From NCBI GenBank assembly GCA_946699065.1, contig CAMPDV010002023.1:1-64000 (forward strand): a stretch of DNA of 64,000 nucleotides. The letters are read 5' to 3'. Each line of letters starts with the position of its first letter. Position 1 is the first letter of the stretch. The notes beneath the pieces are model-generated. The model did not search any database. It saw nothing but the letters and a program-made list of their open reading frames with translations, and had not been told where the DNA came from. Of this stretch, positions 16,911 through 60,887 are shown piece after piece. Position numbers and translations under genes: made by a program. This DNA is from Loxodes magnus. Lineage: Eukaryota; Ciliophora; Karyorelictea; Loxodida; Loxodidae.

Positions 16911-18095
16911 ATGAATTAAAAAGATTAACTTCTTAGAAAAATCTCTAACTTGGTAAAGGGGGAAAATGCTTAAGTATATAAAAAAGAAGGCTAAGCAAAT
17001 ATTATTGAGTATGGGATGAAAAAAGTTTATTGCTAGAATTGTAAGAAGCATACTTTGGCTAATTTTGCTGATATTAGAAAAATTTGAGTTAATTGTAGAC
17101 TTCCTTGGAAGCCTTAAGAAACCTAATAGAGTATTTAGAAATAATAAAATAAAAAATCCTAAAATCCTGGTGTTCTAAAAGTTAATTAATTTGGCTAAAT
17201 TAAGTTTTAAGGCTATCCTTGTTAGTACGAAAGTTTAATCAACTCAGCTGATATTAAGAAAATCTGTCCTTAGAGTGGTTCTGAATTTTAAGAAGTGATT
17301 AAGTCAAGAGAATTCCCTCCTCGATAATTTCACATACAAGAAAAACCTAACTCAGCACCTGGAAACCAATATTAATAACACCAAAGAACAAGACCAGCAT
17401 GACTAAAGTTTTAAACAACTGATGGATACTGGAAAACTTAAGTAATAATACAAGTGGAACCTTTTCCTTCTTCTTTAGTGATAGAAGAAATTTTATTTCC
17501 AAAATATATTTGGAAAGATCCATGTTTTGTAGATTTTAGCTAATTTATAAGCAGTTAAAATAGATTGCTCGATCTTTTATTACATTCCTTTCCTCCAGCA
17601 TGATTTAATTTTAAGTAGGAATGTTTCAATTTCTTTAATAACTTTGAGGATATACTTTAAATGATGATGTACTAAGAGAGTAAAACAGACATGGATTACC
17701 TCCAGGTTTCATAGTAAAGTTTTGACAAACTAAAGAAATACTAAGCTTTTGAACTAAGAGAAAAAGGGCAATGTTTAGTATGTTAATAATAAATAATATA
17801 ATGCGAAGTTTTTATATAACCTTGCAAGCAGTCAAGCAGTCAAGCAGTCAAGCAGTCAAGCAGTCAAGCAGTCAAGCAGTCAAGCAGTCTTTCCATAATG
17901 AATGTCAAATGCCTTTTATATTTAAAAAATAAAAATAAAAAATATGAAATAAATTCTACCCTTAATTATACTAAAGCTACCTATTATTTTTAATCATTCT
18001 ACTTTTACTATAACTATCAAATTTGCTAGCACAAATTACTATTTAATACTAGCTAAAATTTTCTATATTATTAGATAAACATCTAAAAAAGTTGA
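16911..18095 (+). CDS. hypothetical protein with CxxC-containing N-terminal region
   Basis: The start at ATG 16911 gives MNQKDQLLRKISNLVKGENA. A CxxC pair (VYCQNCKKH) follows near residue 52 with a further Cys near 72. A second cluster with the words GYPCQYESL and KKICPQSGSEF follows, then a Pro/Gln-rich linker and an aromatic-rich segment (FPSSLVIEEILFPKYIWKD). Three internal TGA codons fall where Trp is natural (KIWVNC, RPAWLKF, PPAWFNF). The cysteines could bind a metal, but the spacing matches no family I can name. The first later in-frame TGA is at 18093. Convincing text ends near 17800, so the octamer array at 17825-17888 may be coding tail or 3' UTR. Confidence 0.5.
17825..17888. repeat. 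tandem octamer array (CAAGCAGT x8)
   Basis: Eight perfect head-to-tail copies of CAAGCAGT occupy 64 bases and stand out by G+C content. If translated in the frame of the gene that starts at 16911, the 24-nt period would give repeated SSSQAVKQ. Confidence 0.95.
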
Positions 18096-26187: not shown

Positions 26188-26260
26188 TGGAGAACTTGTA
26201 TATCGATCCCAATGCCTCTCGCATGCTAAGCGAGCGCTCTACCATTTGAGCTAGATCCCC
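26188..26260 (-). tRNA. tRNA-Ala (AGC), slightly degenerate
   Basis: The minus strand begins GGGGATCTAGCTCAAATGGT. It has a good D arm, a clean anticodon stem around the loop with anticodon AGC, and a T loop ATCGATA. The acceptor stem (GGGGATC with GTTCTCC) has one mismatch and one wobble. The T stem is weak (TTGGG with TACAA). It could be functional or recently inactivated. It lies 100 bases beyond the inverted repeat. Confidence 0.75.
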
Positions 26261-51543: not shown

Positions 51544-51606
51544 ATCGGTTTAGATCAGTCGGTAGAGCGCCAGCCTTTTAAGCTGGTGGACAAGGGTTCA
51601 AGCAGT
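51544..51606 (+). tRNA. tRNA-Lys (UUU)-like, 3' end lost
   Basis: TAGATCAGTCGGTAGAGC is a D arm with one mismatch. CCAGC-CTTTTAA-GCTGG is a perfect anticodon arm with anticodon TTT. A GGTTCAAGC T-loop/B-box follows. The 3' side of the T stem and the acceptor stem do not pair with the 5' side, so it is a truncated tRNA gene or the head of a tRNA-derived SINE. Confidence 0.6.
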
Positions 51607-52389
51607 TAATTAAAGTAGTAATTAATTAACAAGAAGAAGCTAATTATTTAAAGAAAATTTATTGAATATGTAAGCAAATAGGAAGTACTTAGCTCAATAA
51701 TTTATATAAATGATGCTGAAAGCTGAAATATATTTCATCCAAAATTATTATAAAAAAATACTGAAAGATTAAAAAGATAGCTCTATAATTAGTATATTAA
51801 GTTTATTATTTCTAAATTAAGCAGAAATGCCTTATAAAATTTAAAATTTTTTATAGCAGTTGTTCTTGCTTTATTATTGACTAAGAAAAAAGCAGAATAC
51901 TTCAAATGAAAAACTTTAATTTCTAGATTCACTATTCTTTAGATCTTTTATTTAGGTTAATCCTTCTTTTACATAAAAAGTAAAAAATTTACAAGCTGTA
52001 GAGCAGGAATCCTTTATTCTTATAATTTTAGAAAGCAGAAAAACTTTTTCCATCTCTATTTAAAATTTCTAAACTATTACTAAACCTTTATCTATATTTC
52101 TATATCAGAAATTTAATTTAGTTTTAGTTTTGATTTTTCCCATTTTATTAATTCATAATTTTATAAAAAGATTAGTAGAGAAATACTTTATCAAATAAAT
52201 ATAGAACTTATTTAAATTCTAAAGAATAAGGATAAAAGATGAAGTTAAGAGATTATTCTAAAATAGTATAGAGTAATTATATAATTTTAATATAAAATAT
52301 ATATTAAAAGTTAACTATAACTTAATACAAACTATTAATACGCTTCCTATTTCTATCTTTTATCTCTTACATTTTAACTATTAGGCTTG

Positions 52390-54270: not shown

Positions 54271-54349
54271 TAGTGATTTAATATATTATTTGGACAATAT
54301 TAAATTTAAAAATTAGATTTTTTATCTTAAAGTGTTAAACAAACTTTTA

Positions 54350-54516
54350 AAATTTTATTCCGTTCCAAAAAATTTTGTTCCGTTCCAAAAAATTTTGTTC
54401 CGTTCCAAAAAATTTTGTTCCGTCCCAAAAAAATTTGTTCCGTCCCAAAAAAATTTATTCCGTCACAAAAAATTTTATTCCGTCCCAAAAAAAATTTGTT
54501 CCGTCCCAAAAAACTC
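54350..54516. repeat. 20-21-bp tandem repeats, block 1
   Basis: About eight units of the form TTCCGTCCCAAAAAAATTTG, with C/T and A-run length variation. The block is followed by a GTAAAACGCTGAGCAAAAAA tail. Confidence 0.85.
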
Positions 54517-54783
54517 ATGTAGTGTAAAACGCTGAGCAAAAAAACAAAAATAAATTTTTCACGTTTTTTGCATTCTTTTCTACTTTTTTATCTCTTCACT
54601 TTTACAATTTTTAAATTTTTCCAGAAAAAAAACATACTTTATTATATTACACCTTTTGACTTTTTTTCTTCGCTTTTTCACTCCGCTTTTCATTTCAAAA
54701 CATTATTTTACTCAATCATACTTTTTTTACCTATATTGAAAAAAAAAACTTTCTAAAACTCATTTCTTTTTTAACCCAAAAAA

Positions 54784-55032
54784 AATTGTTCCGTCGCAAA
54801 AAAAATTATACCGTCCCAAAAAAATTTATATGTCCCAAAAAAATTTTGTTCCGTCACAAAAATATTTATTCCAAAAAAATTCGTTCGAAAAAATTTATTC
54901 CGTCCCAAAAAAATTTTATTCCGTCACAAAAAAATTTATTCCGTCCCAAAAAAAATTGTTCCGTTCCAAAAAAAATTGTTCCAAAAAAATTTATTCCGTC
55001 ACAAATTATTTTAGTCCGTCACAAAAAATCTC
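54784..55032. repeat. 20-21-bp tandem repeats, block 2
   Basis: About twelve units of the same TTCCGTC(C/A)CAAAAAAATT sequence. The block is followed by nearly the same tail (GCTAAACGCTGAGCAAAAAA), so block plus tail were duplicated together. On the plus strand it would read as VPSQKN-type peptide repeats, but nothing else suggests it is coding. Confidence 0.85.
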
Positions 55033-55125
55033 CTATAGTGCTAAACGCTGAGCAAAAAAACAAATTTTTTATTTTCACTTCTTTTACACACTATTAAATA
55101 CCAAATTCAAAAAAAACTTGCACAC

Positions 55126-55262
55126 TCATAACCTAACATAACCTAACATACCCTACATACCCTAACATACCCTACATACCCACATACCCACATACCCACA
55201 TACCCACATACCCTACATACCCTACATACCCTACATACCCTAACATACCCTAACATACCCAC
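55126..55262. repeat. interstitial telomere-like array
   Basis: A run of CCCTAACATA, CCCTACATA and CCCACATA units (10, 9 and 8 bases) fills about 135 bases. CCCTAA-type units with CA inserted resemble ciliate telomeric repeats, for example the CCCTAACA known in heterotrichs. The array is degenerate and internal. Confidence 0.8.
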
Positions 55263-55778
55263 ATTTAAATATCTTCTTCCAAATTCCTCTTAAACCTCCA
55301 CTTTCTCTCTCCCTCTTAACACTTAACTCTTCAATAAAAAAATATTCACCACACTCACACACTTTTTTTCAATCCATTTAAATTCTAAAATTTAATTTAT
55401 ATTTATATTTATATTTATATTTATATTTATTCACTAATGATTGCTTAATACTTTCTTACTCACACTTTCTCTAATCTTATTTTTTCTCTTTTTTGAATTC
55501 AAATACTACACTAATTCATCCCTTTTACTAACCTCAAACACTAAATTTTTTCAATTTTAATTTATTATTTTTCACACACCCTTTCTAAAACTTTTAACTA
55601 CTCTCTTTATTTCCAACTCTCTTATAGACACTCACTTAACTTTTTAAAACACTTATTATCTAACACTATACATACCACTTGTCTTATTAAATACTTTAAA
55701 CCAAAAAAACATATATAACTTATAATTTACTTATCTTAATTCAATTATTATTATTTGTTAAAATTTATTCAAGTCTCA
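55263..55778. other. pyrimidine-rich 3' flank of the NACHT-WD40 gene
   Basis: C/T-rich on the plus strand, including six ATTTAT hexamers at about 55395-55430. No gene was seen. It is the downstream side of the minus-strand gene that ends at 55779. Confidence 0.5.
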
Positions 55779-58700
55779 TCACAATGAAAGATACCTGTCT
55801 TGCACTAGTCTCACATTCATCTACTCCATTGCCACTCCCTCAAATTCACATTGGTGCACCTTCAAACCATTCCTTCCCATCATCCTCTTTAACACATAAT
55901 CCCGATGATCCTTTGCTAACTCCCATATCTTGATTGTTTTATCCCAACTTCCAGATATTAAATACTTAGAGTCACTTGATAATACCAGAGAATAAACATA
56001 ACTAGTATGACCCTCTAATGTTCTTATAAGCTTGTATGTCTACATGTCCCATATCCTTATTGTTTTATCCCAACTTCCAGATATTAAATACCTAGAATCA
56101 CTTGATAATACCAGAGAAAGAACAGAACCAGTATGACCCTCTAATGTTCTTATAAGCTCATATGTTTACATGTCCCATATCCTTATTGTTTCACTTCCAG
56201 ATATTAAATACTTAGAGTCACTTGATAATACCAGAGATTCAACAGACCAAGTATGACCCTCTAATGTTCTTATAAACTCATATGTTTACATGTCCCATAT
56301 CCTTATTGTTGTATCCTCACTTCCCGATATTAAATACTTAGAGTCACTTGATAATACCAGAGAATTAACAGTATCAGTATGACCCTCTAATGTTCTTATA
56401 AGCTCATATGTTTACATGTCCCATATCTTTATTGTGTTATCATCACTCCCAGATATTAAATACTTAGAGTCACTTGATAATACCAGAGATTTAACACCAT
56501 AAGTATGACCCTCTAATGTTCTTATAAGCTCATATGTTTACATGTCCCATATCCTTATTTTTTCACCTCCAGATATTAAATACTTAGAGTCACTTGATAA
56601 TACCAGAGATTTAACACCATAAGTATGACCCTCTAATGTTCTTATAAGCTCATATGTTTACATGTCCCATATCCTTATTTTTTCACCTCCAGATATTAAA
56701 TACTTAGAGTCACTTGATAATACCAGAGAAGTAACAGACTTAGTATGACTTTATAGAGGCTTAGTAAGATTATCTATCTACATGTCCCATATCCTTATTG
56801 TTGCATCAACACTTCCAGATATTAAATACTTAGAGTCACTTGATAATACCAGAGAAGTAACAGAACTAGTATGACCCTCTAATGTTCTTATAAGCTCATA
56901 TGTTTACATGTCCCATATCCTTATTGTTTTATCATAGCTTCCTGATATTAAATACTTAGAGTCACTTGATAATACCAAAGAATTAACAGAATCAGTATGA
57001 CCCTCTAATGTTCTTATAAGCTCATATGTCTACATGTCCCATATCCTTATTGTTTCATCACCACTCCCAGATATTAAATACTTAGAGTCACTTGATAATA
57101 CCAGAGAAGTAACCCAATTAGTATGACCCTCTAATGTTCTTATAAGCTCATATGTTTACATGTCCCATATCATTATTGTTCTATCACCACTTCCAGATAT
57201 TAAATACTTAGAGTCACTTGATAATACCAGAGAATTAACACAATGAGTATGACCCTTTAATGTTCTTATAAGCTTATATGTTTACATGTCCCATATCTTT
57301 ATTGTTTTATCCCAACTTCCAGATATTAAATACTTAGAATCACTTGATAATACCAGAGAATTAACACAATGAGTATGACCCTTTAATGTTCTTATAAGCT
57401 TATATGTTTACATGTCCCATATCTTTATTGTTGTATCCTCACTTCCAGATATTAAATACTTAGAGTCACTTGATAATACCAGAGAAAGAACAGAATCAGT
57501 ATGACCCTCTAATGTTCTTATAAGCTCATATGTTTACATGTCCCATATCCTTATTGCTTTATCATATTCTCCTGCTGATATTAAATACTTAGAGTCACTT
57601 GATAATACCAGAGAAGTTACACGATTAGTATGACCAGCTATGGTTGGCATTTAACCAAAATTAACCTAACTCATATTTGCGCCGTTGAATTTACAATTCC
57701 TCAACCATGCTCCCCTGAAATTCACCTTTGATAAATTAGCACCACTCATATCACAACCATCAAACACCGAATCACTCAAATCCGCCCCAGGCACCTAGAT
57801 CTCCCGAAGATCTGTCATCTACGTAAACTGATAATCCATCCAATTCAATATTGTTATACAGTTAGCACCCACTATTTATAAAGCTTTATTGGATCTTGTC
57901 CACTTCACTATCTCCAATAAATTTTATTAAAACTAAACCGAACTATCAATCTCCCTTATAAACTACTAGATCTCCTTATTGTCCACTATCGAATATATGT
58001 TTATTTCGTGAGCTTCTATAGAATTTATGCTATTTTGCAAATTTAAGACTAAATTTACTATATTCCTTGCCACATAGTAATCCCTTATCGATGCATGAAT
58101 AAACTCAAACCTCTTTTAACCATTTTCCTCTTTTATCTATATCAAACATCCTATGTGGTTGGAACTCTCAGTTATTTTCTTTATTCATTCTATATTTGTT
58201 TTTTTAAAACCTTCCCAGTTTATCTAACCAGTTAATAATTACCATGATGCCTCTACTTAAATATCTTCGAAAGTCTCTAAATACTCCCCGATTTCATAAT
58301 TTTTTTTATTTAATCCTTTTAACTTTTATTCAGTTTTATCATTTCATTTATTTATAAAGATCTCATATATCTTTGCCCTTTACACCTTTTTATCCACTCC
58401 TCTCCTCAAATACTTTATTATTTCCTCTTCACTCATACATATATATAACATAAAAGGATTATTTAGAATTTCCATTAAACCCGGAATACTTTAGATGATA
58501 CTCATTTACTCTTTTACCTTTTCAATAGTTTCCTTTTGCTACTCCTATTAATTTGCATTTTGAATCTACTTTCCTATAACTAACTTTATATATTACTCTA
58601 TCTAACTTTTATCAAAAGGCTTAATATATAACTCCTCCAACTCCTATACATAAGCTCTTTCATTTTTAAAATGAACAAAATAATCCTTATAATTTTTATC

Positions 58701-60887
58701 CGTCAATGCATAATTGATTCTACAAGTTACTATATACTTTGCATACGGATATTTAAGGTTTAATTCATTATTAGCTATTATATTATTATAATTTCCCAAC
58801 TCGTCATAGGCATCAAATAGAAAAAGCATCTTCCTAAACATCAAACTTTCATTTTCCTCAATTTTGCGGTTTTTTAAAGCTGTCTCTACTAAACTAGATT
58901 TATAATTTTCAATAGTTGGAAGATAAACGTATATCGGTAGTCAGTCATGCTTCTACTCCAGAAACTTATATGCTAGAGTTTTCAGAAATAGAGATTTTCC
59001 GGAACCTGAATCTCCCAACAGTAATAATCCAGTTTTATCTTCACTGTCTAAAAAGTTCTAAATTTTGCTTTCAAGATTATTTTATTCCTTAGAACTAGGA
59101 CTAGGAGCACATAATAAACTTATGTAATATTCCTACTTTTCTTAAATCTCATTTTACAAATAGTTTCTCATATTCTAATATATTTTATTATCTATACCCT
59201 TTAAGGCCAACCAATTCTCCTCCATAGTTTAGGTAAACTAAGTAATATGGTCCGAATTCTTTAATATTTCTATTACTATCTATTGTTCCCTATCATTTTA
59301 AATTAAACTTTCATTCTTTTCCTTAAATACTCTCTCCTTATAAGTTGTAGCTACTTAGTTCTTGTCAATGCTTAGTTCTAATAATGATTTCAAAGCAAAG
59401 TATCGAATCTACCAATCTTTATCCTTACACAATTGCTCTAGCAGCTAGCACGATTCCTTAACTAGTTCTGGAGAAGCTTTAGGATTTTTAATCATGTGCT
59501 TCAAAAGTTAACATGCTCTAAATCTTAGATCCAACTTTTCTTTCAAGACGAGACTTTTAAATTATTCAAATGTTTCTTATGAATATTTAATTACCAAGTC
59601 ATAGGTAAGGGCATCTAGGTATCTTATTCTAACTATTTTTTTAAGGTGAATTTTTGAATTTATTTTCTCAGTTCCCCATACAATGAATTCCTTTATTATG
59701 GAGATCGCATCAGTATCGATAGCCCCAATTCCAAATGATAAAGCAACTGCCCATTAAGCAACCTTTAGAATTTTGCAGAATATTCCGAAGTAATCATTTT
59801 CTTTATTGTCTGGAATATTCTTCAATATCATCTAACTGTATCTTAAGTAAAAATCTAACTCTGGTCCGCCTATTCTCCTTATATTTACTAATTTTAATCC
59901 AGCTTCTATTTTTTACTCAAGATACTTTTTCGTTTCAGCACTTATGAAGAATTCATTACTTTTATTCTTTTCCTCACCTTTAGAAGAGCTTTACTCGTTC
60001 TTCTAAAGAAACATGTCTAATAACTCAGGAAGATTTTGTACAAGTTACACCTTTAAGAGTTAAGACCAACCTTCAGTATATTAATGAGAAACTATTTCTA
60101 TAAATTGCTTTATAAGCACCAAAGGATCATTTAGTTTGATTAACTTATTTTTTGGAATGGTTTAAATTCCTTGTAGAACTAGTTCCATCTTTTACTAGTT
60201 TAAGCCCTCTTTTAAGAGGTTTAATCCTTTTTGATAAATCTCTTAGTCTTCAGTTCCTAAAACTAGTTTTTGAGACTAAGTAGCATTTATATTGTTTGAA
60301 GTTTACTACGTCAACTAAGAGTTTTAGATTTTTGGTTGTTGAGATTTAGTAACATCAGCTACTTTAGCACTCCCACATCCTCCTCCCTTCAGTTTCATAC
60401 TTTTCTAGAATTTAAAGTTTTAGATTTATTTGATCCGCACTGCTCCTTAATAAGAAGTCGTCTATAAGCTTTCTTTTAGATAATTTGTTTCGTTTATCTA
60501 AAACTCTTTAACATCTAGTATTTCTGCGTTTACCAGATAAGGATAATTTTGAATCAAGCTGTAACTTTCAGTACCTTATTAGTATCGTAAGGCATTTTCT
60601 GCTATTTGTCCTTGAATATACTCTTCCATTAGTCTTGGCAAAGTTTTATTATCCATAAGCTAATTATTACTTGATTTTAGCATAAATCTAATTTAAGTTT
60701 ATCCCTCAACTTTTTTGAGTATCTTTTAATCCTTAAAATTCGCGTCCGTTTAAATTTGCTAGGCTAATCAGATTATAACATCATGAGATTTTAGAAATCC
60801 ATATAATTAGGTTTAAGACTGAAAGCCATGACAGCTTCCAAGAATTTAACCGAAGATAAAGCAATTTGAATTGCAATATTGAGGCAT
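55779..60887 (-). CDS. NACHT-pentapeptide-WD40 STAND receptor (NLR-like)
   Basis: ATG 60887 to TGA 55779 is exactly 1703 codons in one frame. Residues 1-45 form a Cys/His motif ([21 protein letters not shown]). Residues 45-560 are mostly helical with HEAT-like units. The NACHT NTPase has P-loop GDSGSGKS at about 625 and Walker [12 protein letters not shown] at about 685. A helical segment ([17 protein letters not shown]) runs to 1000, pentapeptide-type repeats ([23 protein letters not shown]) lie at about 1030-1075, and 14 WD40 repeats fill 1080-1672. STAND proteins are ligand-gated switches: the repeats sense, the NACHT domain oligomerises. The start and 5' flank are conserved in the 20.2-kb copy. 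It ends in tandem TGA TGA. The effector, if any, would be the N-terminal part and was not recognised. Function in immunity or self-recognition is inferred. Confidence 0.92.
55880..57650 (-). repeat. 14 near-identical 126-bp WD40-encoding units
   Basis: Units of 126 bases (three shortened in frame) encode [20 protein letters not shown] followed by GSxDxTIxIWDMQTYELIRT. The framework is almost invariant in DNA sequence, while the x positions differ between units: after GHT one finds NR, DS, HC, NW, SS, KS, YG, DT, WS, GS and SY. Two pairs of neighbours share the same variable residues, a sign of recent unit duplication. Confidence 0.92.

Follow-up and report, generated by a model that had tools for sequence, protein, structure and literature searches.

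A 64,000-nucleotide stretch of Loxodes magnus DNA (contig C2023, hereafter the window) carries on its minus strand a gene whose predicted protein joins, in this order, a helical ARM/HEAT-like region, a NACHT NTPase region, pentapeptide repeats and 14 WD40 units. We consider it likely that the gene belongs to a large, open family of NLR-type (NACHT STAND) receptor genes whose repertoire has been diversified by selection and recombination. The family is marked by this architecture, by many open copies, by purifying selection on the protein from residue 221 onward, by diversification of the loops of the WD40 units, by a near-fixed number of blades and by the sharing of modules between copies.

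The DNA searched was a single L. magnus assembly (705.73 Mb, 7843 contigs). With residues 1–1076 of the window protein as query, only 43 of 2727 first-look candidates were scored; these gave 43 complete or almost complete copies, one of them the window's own (36 uninterrupted and 7 split in two), so that the family has at least 43 copies. A 35-base DNA pattern from the pentapeptide repeats occurs at 85 places with at most three mismatches, 47 of them exact, while its reversed control occurs at none; because the 85 places include haplotype-like copies, the gene number is below 85. Several contigs hold two or three copies, some 26–62 kb apart. The 30 best of the 43 scored copies were fetched, which favours close relatives of the window gene, and 10 of these were removed for redundancy, at an N-terminal DNA identity of 98.5% or above, leaving the 20 loci used for most counts.

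The gene, its reading frame and its domains

The initial annotation had described the gene at 55779..60887 as intact, and its coordinates, strand and length of 1702 residues proved right. A single open frame is obtained only when TAA and TAG are read as glutamine and internal TGA as tryptophan; reading TGA as stop, as in the bacterial code or in table 6 without TGA as tryptophan, was rejected, since the frame then breaks up. In karyorelict ciliates TGA encodes tryptophan and is also the sole stop codon (PMC11441545). Internal TGA codons lie at residues 40, 649, 848 and 901, and among 16 copies of the same length, the window's included, they recur in all 16 at residues 40, 848 and 901 and in 14 at residue 649. 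They are therefore not errors of one copy, and a pseudogene reading was rejected on the strength of this recurrence and of the karyorelict code (PMC11441545).

The NACHT region scores 21.8 bits, under the Pfam cut-off of 26.7, and its predicted fold has NOD2, NLRC4 and NLRP3, all animal NLRs, as nearest matches. Residues D692, Y694, D695 and E696 around the Walker B motif are invariant between the window protein and its homologs, and the WD40 units and the pentapeptide repeats both score above their Pfam cut-offs. Walker A and B motifs, a predicted NACHT fold and C-terminal repeats of the superstructure-forming kind, the features of the NACHT STAND/NLR type, are thus all present. No Pfam match to a HET domain was obtained in the window protein at E values up to 10.

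The region ahead of the NACHT is less sharply defined. The predicted model of the helical region is fairly confident only over about residues 420–500, and homologs from Mortierellaceae carry a Pfam ARM_5 match ahead of their NACHT. Selection along the gene was followed in 15 loci (the window copy and L010–L031, with L033 left out) as the ratio of the proportions of nonsynonymous and synonymous differences (pN/pS). From residue 221 the protein body is under purifying selection, with pN/pS of 0.17–0.42 by window, whereas residues 1–220 are weakly constrained (0.61–0.88), and for this reason the true start of the gene may lie downstream of 60887. In the same 15 loci silent divergence rises along residues 1–1080, from 0.027 at the 5' end to 0.17–0.19 at the pentapeptide region. 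A conserved motif bearing KGGGC is shared with the metagenomic proteins P0002, P0005 and P0006, in which a ubiquitin-like domain ends in it. P0002 and P0005 prompted a search for such a domain at the N-terminus of the Loxodes protein, but none could be demonstrated: profile comparison gave a probability of 54%, with agreement mainly in the shared tail, and the model of the Loxodes stretch compared has a predicted local distance difference test (pLDDT) score of 20–39.

Hypervariable loops on a uniform scaffold

The fourteen near-identical WD40 units that the initial annotation had reported were counted again as 14. Tandem Repeats Finder describes the array as 13.7 copies of a 126-bp period with 89% matches, and the nine window units of exactly 42 residues are mutually 82% identical in protein and 89% in DNA (80–88% in protein in the four copies measured). 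Within these nine units identity is 91% in the framework and 14% at five variable residues. Array ends were reached in 23 of the 30 loci, the other 7 not being read to the end, and 21 of the 23 arrays have exactly 14 units, with the linker [VI]DNLTKPLQ in unit 7, to which L012 adds another in unit 9. The unit splitter accepts 39–45 residues, so that larger length variants would not register as such. The other two arrays are shorter: L016 has 10 units, and L034 has 7 where its near-twin L033, 99.4% identical ahead of the array, has 14. The nearest solved structure by sequence, 2ymu, is itself a repetitive WD40 protein, and 14 units with a marked middle would by analogy probably form two seven-bladed propellers. 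Searching structures with the WD40 part returned none at E 1e-30, and 739 with a slightly different cut at 1e-3. Two arrays of unusual build were noted: the seven units of L034 (contig C376), with the linker in unit 3, would form exactly one propeller, and the array of L097 (C2076:33080-39600) runs in frame for 50 units or more and includes long internal duplications.

To describe variation within the units, entropy, pN/pS and codon counts were taken from units of exactly 42 residues not cut by a locus end. In the 261 such units of the 30 loci, redundant ones included, entropy reaches 2.2–3.5 bits at columns 4, 5 and 7, which make up loop 1, and at columns 23 and 25, in loop 2; it is 1.3–1.4 bits at columns 15, 28 and 42, and the remaining columns stay at roughly 1.0 or lower. 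The five main columns are those that the initial annotation had singled out (two residues after GHT, the residue before S, and x in GSxDxT), to which column 28 is added as a more weakly varying position. Among 179 units there are 160 distinct combinations of the five residues.

The variable codons evolve unlike the framework around them, and not neutrally, as had been proposed for testing on paralogs. In the 20 non-redundant loci pN/pS is 0.38 for the N-terminal part, 0.33 for the WD framework and 4.5 for the five variable codons; in a group of eight close loci, which omits the redundant L014 and L017, the values are 0.31, 0.39 and 4.8. The key comparison relates pN at the variable codons to the pS of framework columns 1–33 of the same unit pairs, with bootstrapping over loci. 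It gives 0.57 against 0.07 in the eight close loci, a ratio of 7.7 (bootstrap 6.4–9.7), and 0.57 against 0.13 in the 20 loci, a ratio of 4.4 (3.5–5.9). Loops released from constraint should show pN no greater than pS, and hence a ratio of at most 1, so that relaxed constraint does not explain them.

Length varies in the same part of the unit. In a census of 20 loci, with L027 replacing L022, 47 of 256 non-terminal units depart from the length of 42 residues, in 46 cases through loop 2 alone, which has 4–8 residues instead of 6. The sole length variant outside loop 2 is in L021; one 42-residue unit was missed by the search motif.

Codon usage at the variable columns is unusually narrow. Columns 4, 5 and 7 together hold 459 codons of the form NNT and none of the form NNC, and column 23 holds 121 and 1, compared with 7243 and 2028 in the N-terminal parts. 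Arginine at column 23 is encoded by CGT in 17 of 17 cases, a codon that accounts for 6 of 605 arginines in the N-terminal parts, and the common residues mostly have a single codon per column. The third base is mostly fixed, as T at columns 4, 5 and 7, A at 25 and G at 28, while the first and second bases vary; other third bases than T occur chiefly where the residue changes, to Glu, Lys or Trp (GAA, GAG, TGG, AAA). This pattern suits a small number of mutational origins spread by recombination, with selection acting on residues.

Table 1. Features of the gene, in window coordinates
Feature	Position	Strand	Remarks
Whole gene	55779..60887	-	1702 codons and terminal TGA; residues 1–1076 open likewise in scored copies
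Terminal TGA, second TGA directly after	55779..55781	-	
Conserved KGGGC-bearing motif, about residues 163–177	60357..60401	-	KGGGC in 30 of 30 Loxodes loci; possible alternative start
Helical ARM/HEAT-like region, about residues 197–590	59118..60299	-	HEAT below Pfam cut-off, E 0.003; predicted helices
NACHT NTPase region, about residues 600–890	58218..59090	-	
Walker A GDSGSGKS, residues 625–632	58992..59015	-	present in 30 of 30 loci
Walker B acidic residues DAYDE, residues 692–696	58800..58814	-	present in 30 of 30 loci
C-terminal module, from about residue 876	55779..58262	-	common to subfamilies with far more divergent N-terminal and NACHT regions
Pentapeptide repeats, residues 1034–1069	57681..57788	-	PF00805, E 2.1e-10; model pLDDT 81–87
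WD40 units 1–7, putative first seven-bladed propeller	56751..57635	-	unit starts 57635, 57506, 57380, 57254, 57128, 57002, 56876; unit 7 ends in linker DNLTKPLQ
WD40 units 8–14, putative second seven-bladed propeller	55887..56750	-	unit starts 56750, 56630, 56510, 56384, 56258, 56138, 56012; closest solved relative by sequence 2ymu
Hypervariable codons 4, 5, 7 (loop 1) and 23, 25 (loop 2) of each unit	55887..57635	-	

Exchange between units, arrays and loci

Arrays differ between copies, as expected of the diversified receptors that the initial annotation had envisaged. When variable residues are compared slot by slot, mean identity is 0.94 for pairs with N-terminal DNA identity of at least 99% (15 pairs, range 0.53–1.00), 0.24 at 98–99% (11 pairs, one at 0.95) and 0.15–0.19 at lower identity. 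Identical units are seldom shared: of 214 different unit DNA sequences, just 3 are found in more than one of the 20 loci.

Association between columns was tested with linker-bearing units left out. It is strong within loops (columns 4–5, 5–7, 4–7 and 23–25, with z of 12.5, 5.3, 3.2 and 4.1); the remaining pairs show little association or none (z no higher than 2.4), markers 6–9 nucleotides away giving z of −0.7 to 0.2. Because the markers vary within only 6–17 of the 20 arrays, the power of these tests is modest. Strict independence of the two loops, which the pairwise tests had suggested, was dropped when loops 1 and 2 tested jointly gave a z of 5.3, from which it follows that some units are inherited whole; a weak association remains. 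Shuffling of whole units as the sole mechanism is not favoured, given that the loops of a unit are weakly associated in tests of modest power.

Copies fetched by their WD units extend the comparison to diverged subfamilies. Ahead of the array L044, L045 and L047 are 53% and L046 is 71% identical to the window copy, and in 50-column windows the first three range from 17 to 66% up to about residue 876–905 and then reach at least 90%. This change, read in the aligned sequences, shows that the C-terminal module is shared between diverged subfamilies, and together with the unit comparisons it points to exchange within and between loci. The earlier proposal of repeat shuffling plus selection thus stands for selection and for the exchange of modules, and falls short where it would have whole units shuffled alone, in view of the weakly associated loops and of the 14 units kept in 21 of 23 arrays.

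One pair of copies may display such a change at a single place. L016 and L017 have identical N-terminal parts, share 1499 of 1500 bases upstream, and in two downstream pieces of 1001 bases are 100% and 99.8% identical; about 12 kb upstream 595 of 1001 bases match at 100%, the remainder of that piece being without a match. Despite near-identical flanks the L016 array has 10 units and that of L017 has 14, and the two look like versions of one locus (an allele, a nuclear variant or an assembly error). The somatic nuclei of Loxodes are formed anew from germline copies even at asexual division (PMC11441545), and on a bolder reading that we think doubtful, array versions could even differ between Loxodes nuclei, with one locus already showing a 14-unit and a 10-unit version.

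Relatives, function and rival explanations

A NACHT region, pentapeptide repeats and WD40 units had been thought an unusual combination for one protein; the combination is present here, but is not unique. A protein search with residues 160–1083, in which 7986 candidates were scored from a database of 5.8 billion, gave three proteins matching that span, the best being P0002 with 24% identity over 98% of the query. P0002, P0005 and P0006 have the same order of parts as the Loxodes protein, and P0007, a shorter protein, combines the three as well. The first three differ in beginning with a ubiquitin-like domain (by Pfam listing; P0005 was compared with ubiquitin) that ends in LKLKGG, at the same KGGGCG motif, as well as in ordinary stop codons being predicted and in less uniform units. 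In a rough parse the units of P0005 vary most at the columns that are variable in Loxodes, while those of P0006 and P0007 do so less cleanly, a few other columns being equal; the pattern of variability is thus probably not confined to Loxodes. No relatives of P0005 were found in IMG/VR, and in GTDB genomes it matched 32 loci, 20 of them cyanobacterial by title and none before query residue 759 of 1550. The Mortierellaceae proteins P0003 and P0004 have the ARM_5 helical region before the NACHT, as in Loxodes, and P0008, from Mortierella, combines NACHT, pentapeptide repeats and WD40, but its WD units, unlike those of Loxodes, average only 27% identity (rough parse, nine units).

Animal NLRs have leucine-rich repeat sensors, and APAF1 combines NB-ARC with divergent blades, unlike the Loxodes protein. 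The closest parallel is found in the NWD/HNWD proteins HET-D, HET-E and HET-R of Podospora anserina, which likewise join NACHT to highly similar WD40 units and to which the initial annotation had compared the gene. Positively selected WD positions in Podospora have been modelled on the top face of the propeller (PMC1805685), and by motif alignment the hypervariable Podospora codons 7, 9, 25 and 27 correspond to Loxodes 5, 7, 23 and 25, flanking conserved framework residues in both (PMC1805685), which bears the comparison out. In Podospora too, WD units are homogenised and exchanged within and between genes (PMC1805685, PMC2873952), and the unit identity in Loxodes (80–88% in protein) lies at or just below the fungal value of about 85% (PMC4986451). 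The Loxodes family differs in its dozens of copies, as against 10 in Podospora, in its variable column 4 and variable length of loop 2, in keeping 14 units with a positioned linker in 21 of 23 arrays where Podospora genes vary widely in unit number, and in its ciliate host with a context-dependent code. An ARM/HEAT-like region and pentapeptide repeats stand in place of the HET domain of HNWD proteins. No HET domain was detected, and the Loxodes protein is not classed as HNWD, although by analogy it would work like the fungal NACHT-WD receptors.

The roles of the parts are assigned by analogy with STAND proteins, anatomy and mode of evolution alone being observed. The double propeller would be the sensor, the NACHT the switch and the N-terminal helical region the signalling part. 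We infer that the 14 units would close into two seven-bladed propellers with the variable loops lining their top faces, where ligands would be bound; binding would release an autoinhibited NACHT, which would then exchange nucleotide and oligomerise, and the helical region would relay the signal, perhaps triggering cell death or some other form of defence. Point changes under diversifying selection, recombination both inside and across units and loci, and exchange of whole modules would generate new specificities. Microbial or non-self molecules are, by the same analogy, the probable ligands; the self/non-self or parasite sensing raised in the initial annotation would be a possible role of this kind. 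CHAT is a caspase-like domain, and genes fusing it to NACHT in the same genome (L004 and L008, also L107) would fit a cell-death pathway. Further NACHT-type genes in this genome are an NB-ARC gene, L007 (also L108), and the NACHT-pentapeptide genes L003 and L006. Matches to TPR under the cut-off lie downstream of L007 and L008 and a match to a glycosyltransferase family (GNT-I) downstream of L004; no Pfam matches were found downstream of L003, in the frame of its NACHT, or of L001.

Several observations weigh against a receptor family diversified in this way. The Nei–Gojobori (NG86) proportions take no account of recombination or saturation, and the sampled copies are the nearest relatives of the window gene. 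The unit framework near loop 1 is itself strongly homogenised at silent sites, so that the codon pattern alone is no proof of selection. In haplotype-like pairs variable-residue identity is 1.00 (L030/L032) and 0.95 (L027/L029), these arrays being identical or nearly so, and diversification is therefore not seen at every timescale. The single-sequence model of the WD40 part has a mean pLDDT of 35 and is unusable; propeller closure and the placing of the loops on the top face consequently rest on blade number, on 2ymu and on the Podospora model. No N-terminal effector fold was recognised, the similarity to HEAT/ARM being weak and the model of residues 1–200 poor.

The same design could instead serve allorecognition or mating compatibility, with a ligand from the same species, as in the heterokaryon incompatibility of Podospora. 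We regard this as the foremost of the rival explanations, yet as rather unlikely: the closest functional parallel does speak for it, HET-D and HET-E having HET-C as their interacting partner (PMC1805685), but at least dozens of loci and 160 combinations among 179 units exceed what a few compatibility loci need, and even in Podospora such dynamism has been held to make more sense for pathogen receptors (Chevanne et al., PMC2873952).

Less probable still is a dedicated mutator that writes the loop codons, for instance one based on reverse transcription like the diversity-generating retroelements that diversify NACHT-linked sensors in bacteria (PMC10907252). The mostly fixed third base beside varied first and second bases is what such a device might leave, as is a strong association within loops with none detected, at modest power, to markers 6–9 nucleotides away. 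Third bases other than T, however, mainly change the residue, which is unexpected of a blind base-specific mutator, and the prevalence of a single codon for each residue in a given column suggests a small number of origins, dispersed by recombination.

Relaxed constraint, with loops free to vary on a framework kept by folding and homogenisation, is very improbable: tolerance is expected at surface positions of a WD40 blade and framework silent sites are partly homogenised, but pN at the variable codons exceeds framework pS 4.4–7.7 fold (lower bounds 3.5 and 6.4), and columns 4, 5 and 7 lack any synonymous T-to-C change. Just as little credit is given to an amplified repeat, a mobile-element-like family or an assembly product without receptor function, for although there are many copies, satellites beside the gene and one array that counts 50 units or more and has long duplications inside it, the protein body is under purifying selection, the Walker motifs are intact in all 30 loci, 14 blades are kept in 21 of 23 arrays, and the 20 neighbouring frames scanned in the window matched no Pfam family, hence no mobile-element domain.

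A bolder proposal, which we think doubtful, is that this single-celled eukaryote maintains an antibody-like anticipatory repertoire: dozens of NLR genes, each with a near-fixed scaffold of two times seven blades and 28 short hypervariable loops, two to a blade, diversified by a process working on the loop codons themselves at a higher rate than on neighbouring silent sites. Rapidly diversifying NLR repertoires are found in plants and animals, and also in fungi (PMC4986451). No report of such a repertoire in ciliates came up in literature listings, a search that most subscription papers, preprints and supplements lay outside, and the paper on the Loxodes genome has neither NACHT nor WD40 in its main text (PMC11441545). 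Dozens of such genes in a free-living single cell would bear on the question of whether innate immunity of the recognition type depends on multicellularity or on cell fusion. The clean scaffold, with its near-fixed blade number, uniform framework and loops variable in sequence and length, lets the shares of selection, gene conversion and mutation be measured directly, and the family may be regarded as a natural library of double propellers.

Elsewhere in the window, tandem satellites with periods of about 20 bp and 9 bp occupy 54349–55264, directly downstream of the gene, and similar-looking repeats occur in the read-through downstream of copy L014. A perfect 8-bp tandem repeat, CAAGCAGT, is present in 8.1 copies at 17825–17889. 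A tRNA-Ala (AGC) gene lies at 26188–26260 on the minus strand. Another tRNA match, missed by ARAGORN and scored at 31.1 bits by Rfam, lies at 51544–51615 on the plus strand.

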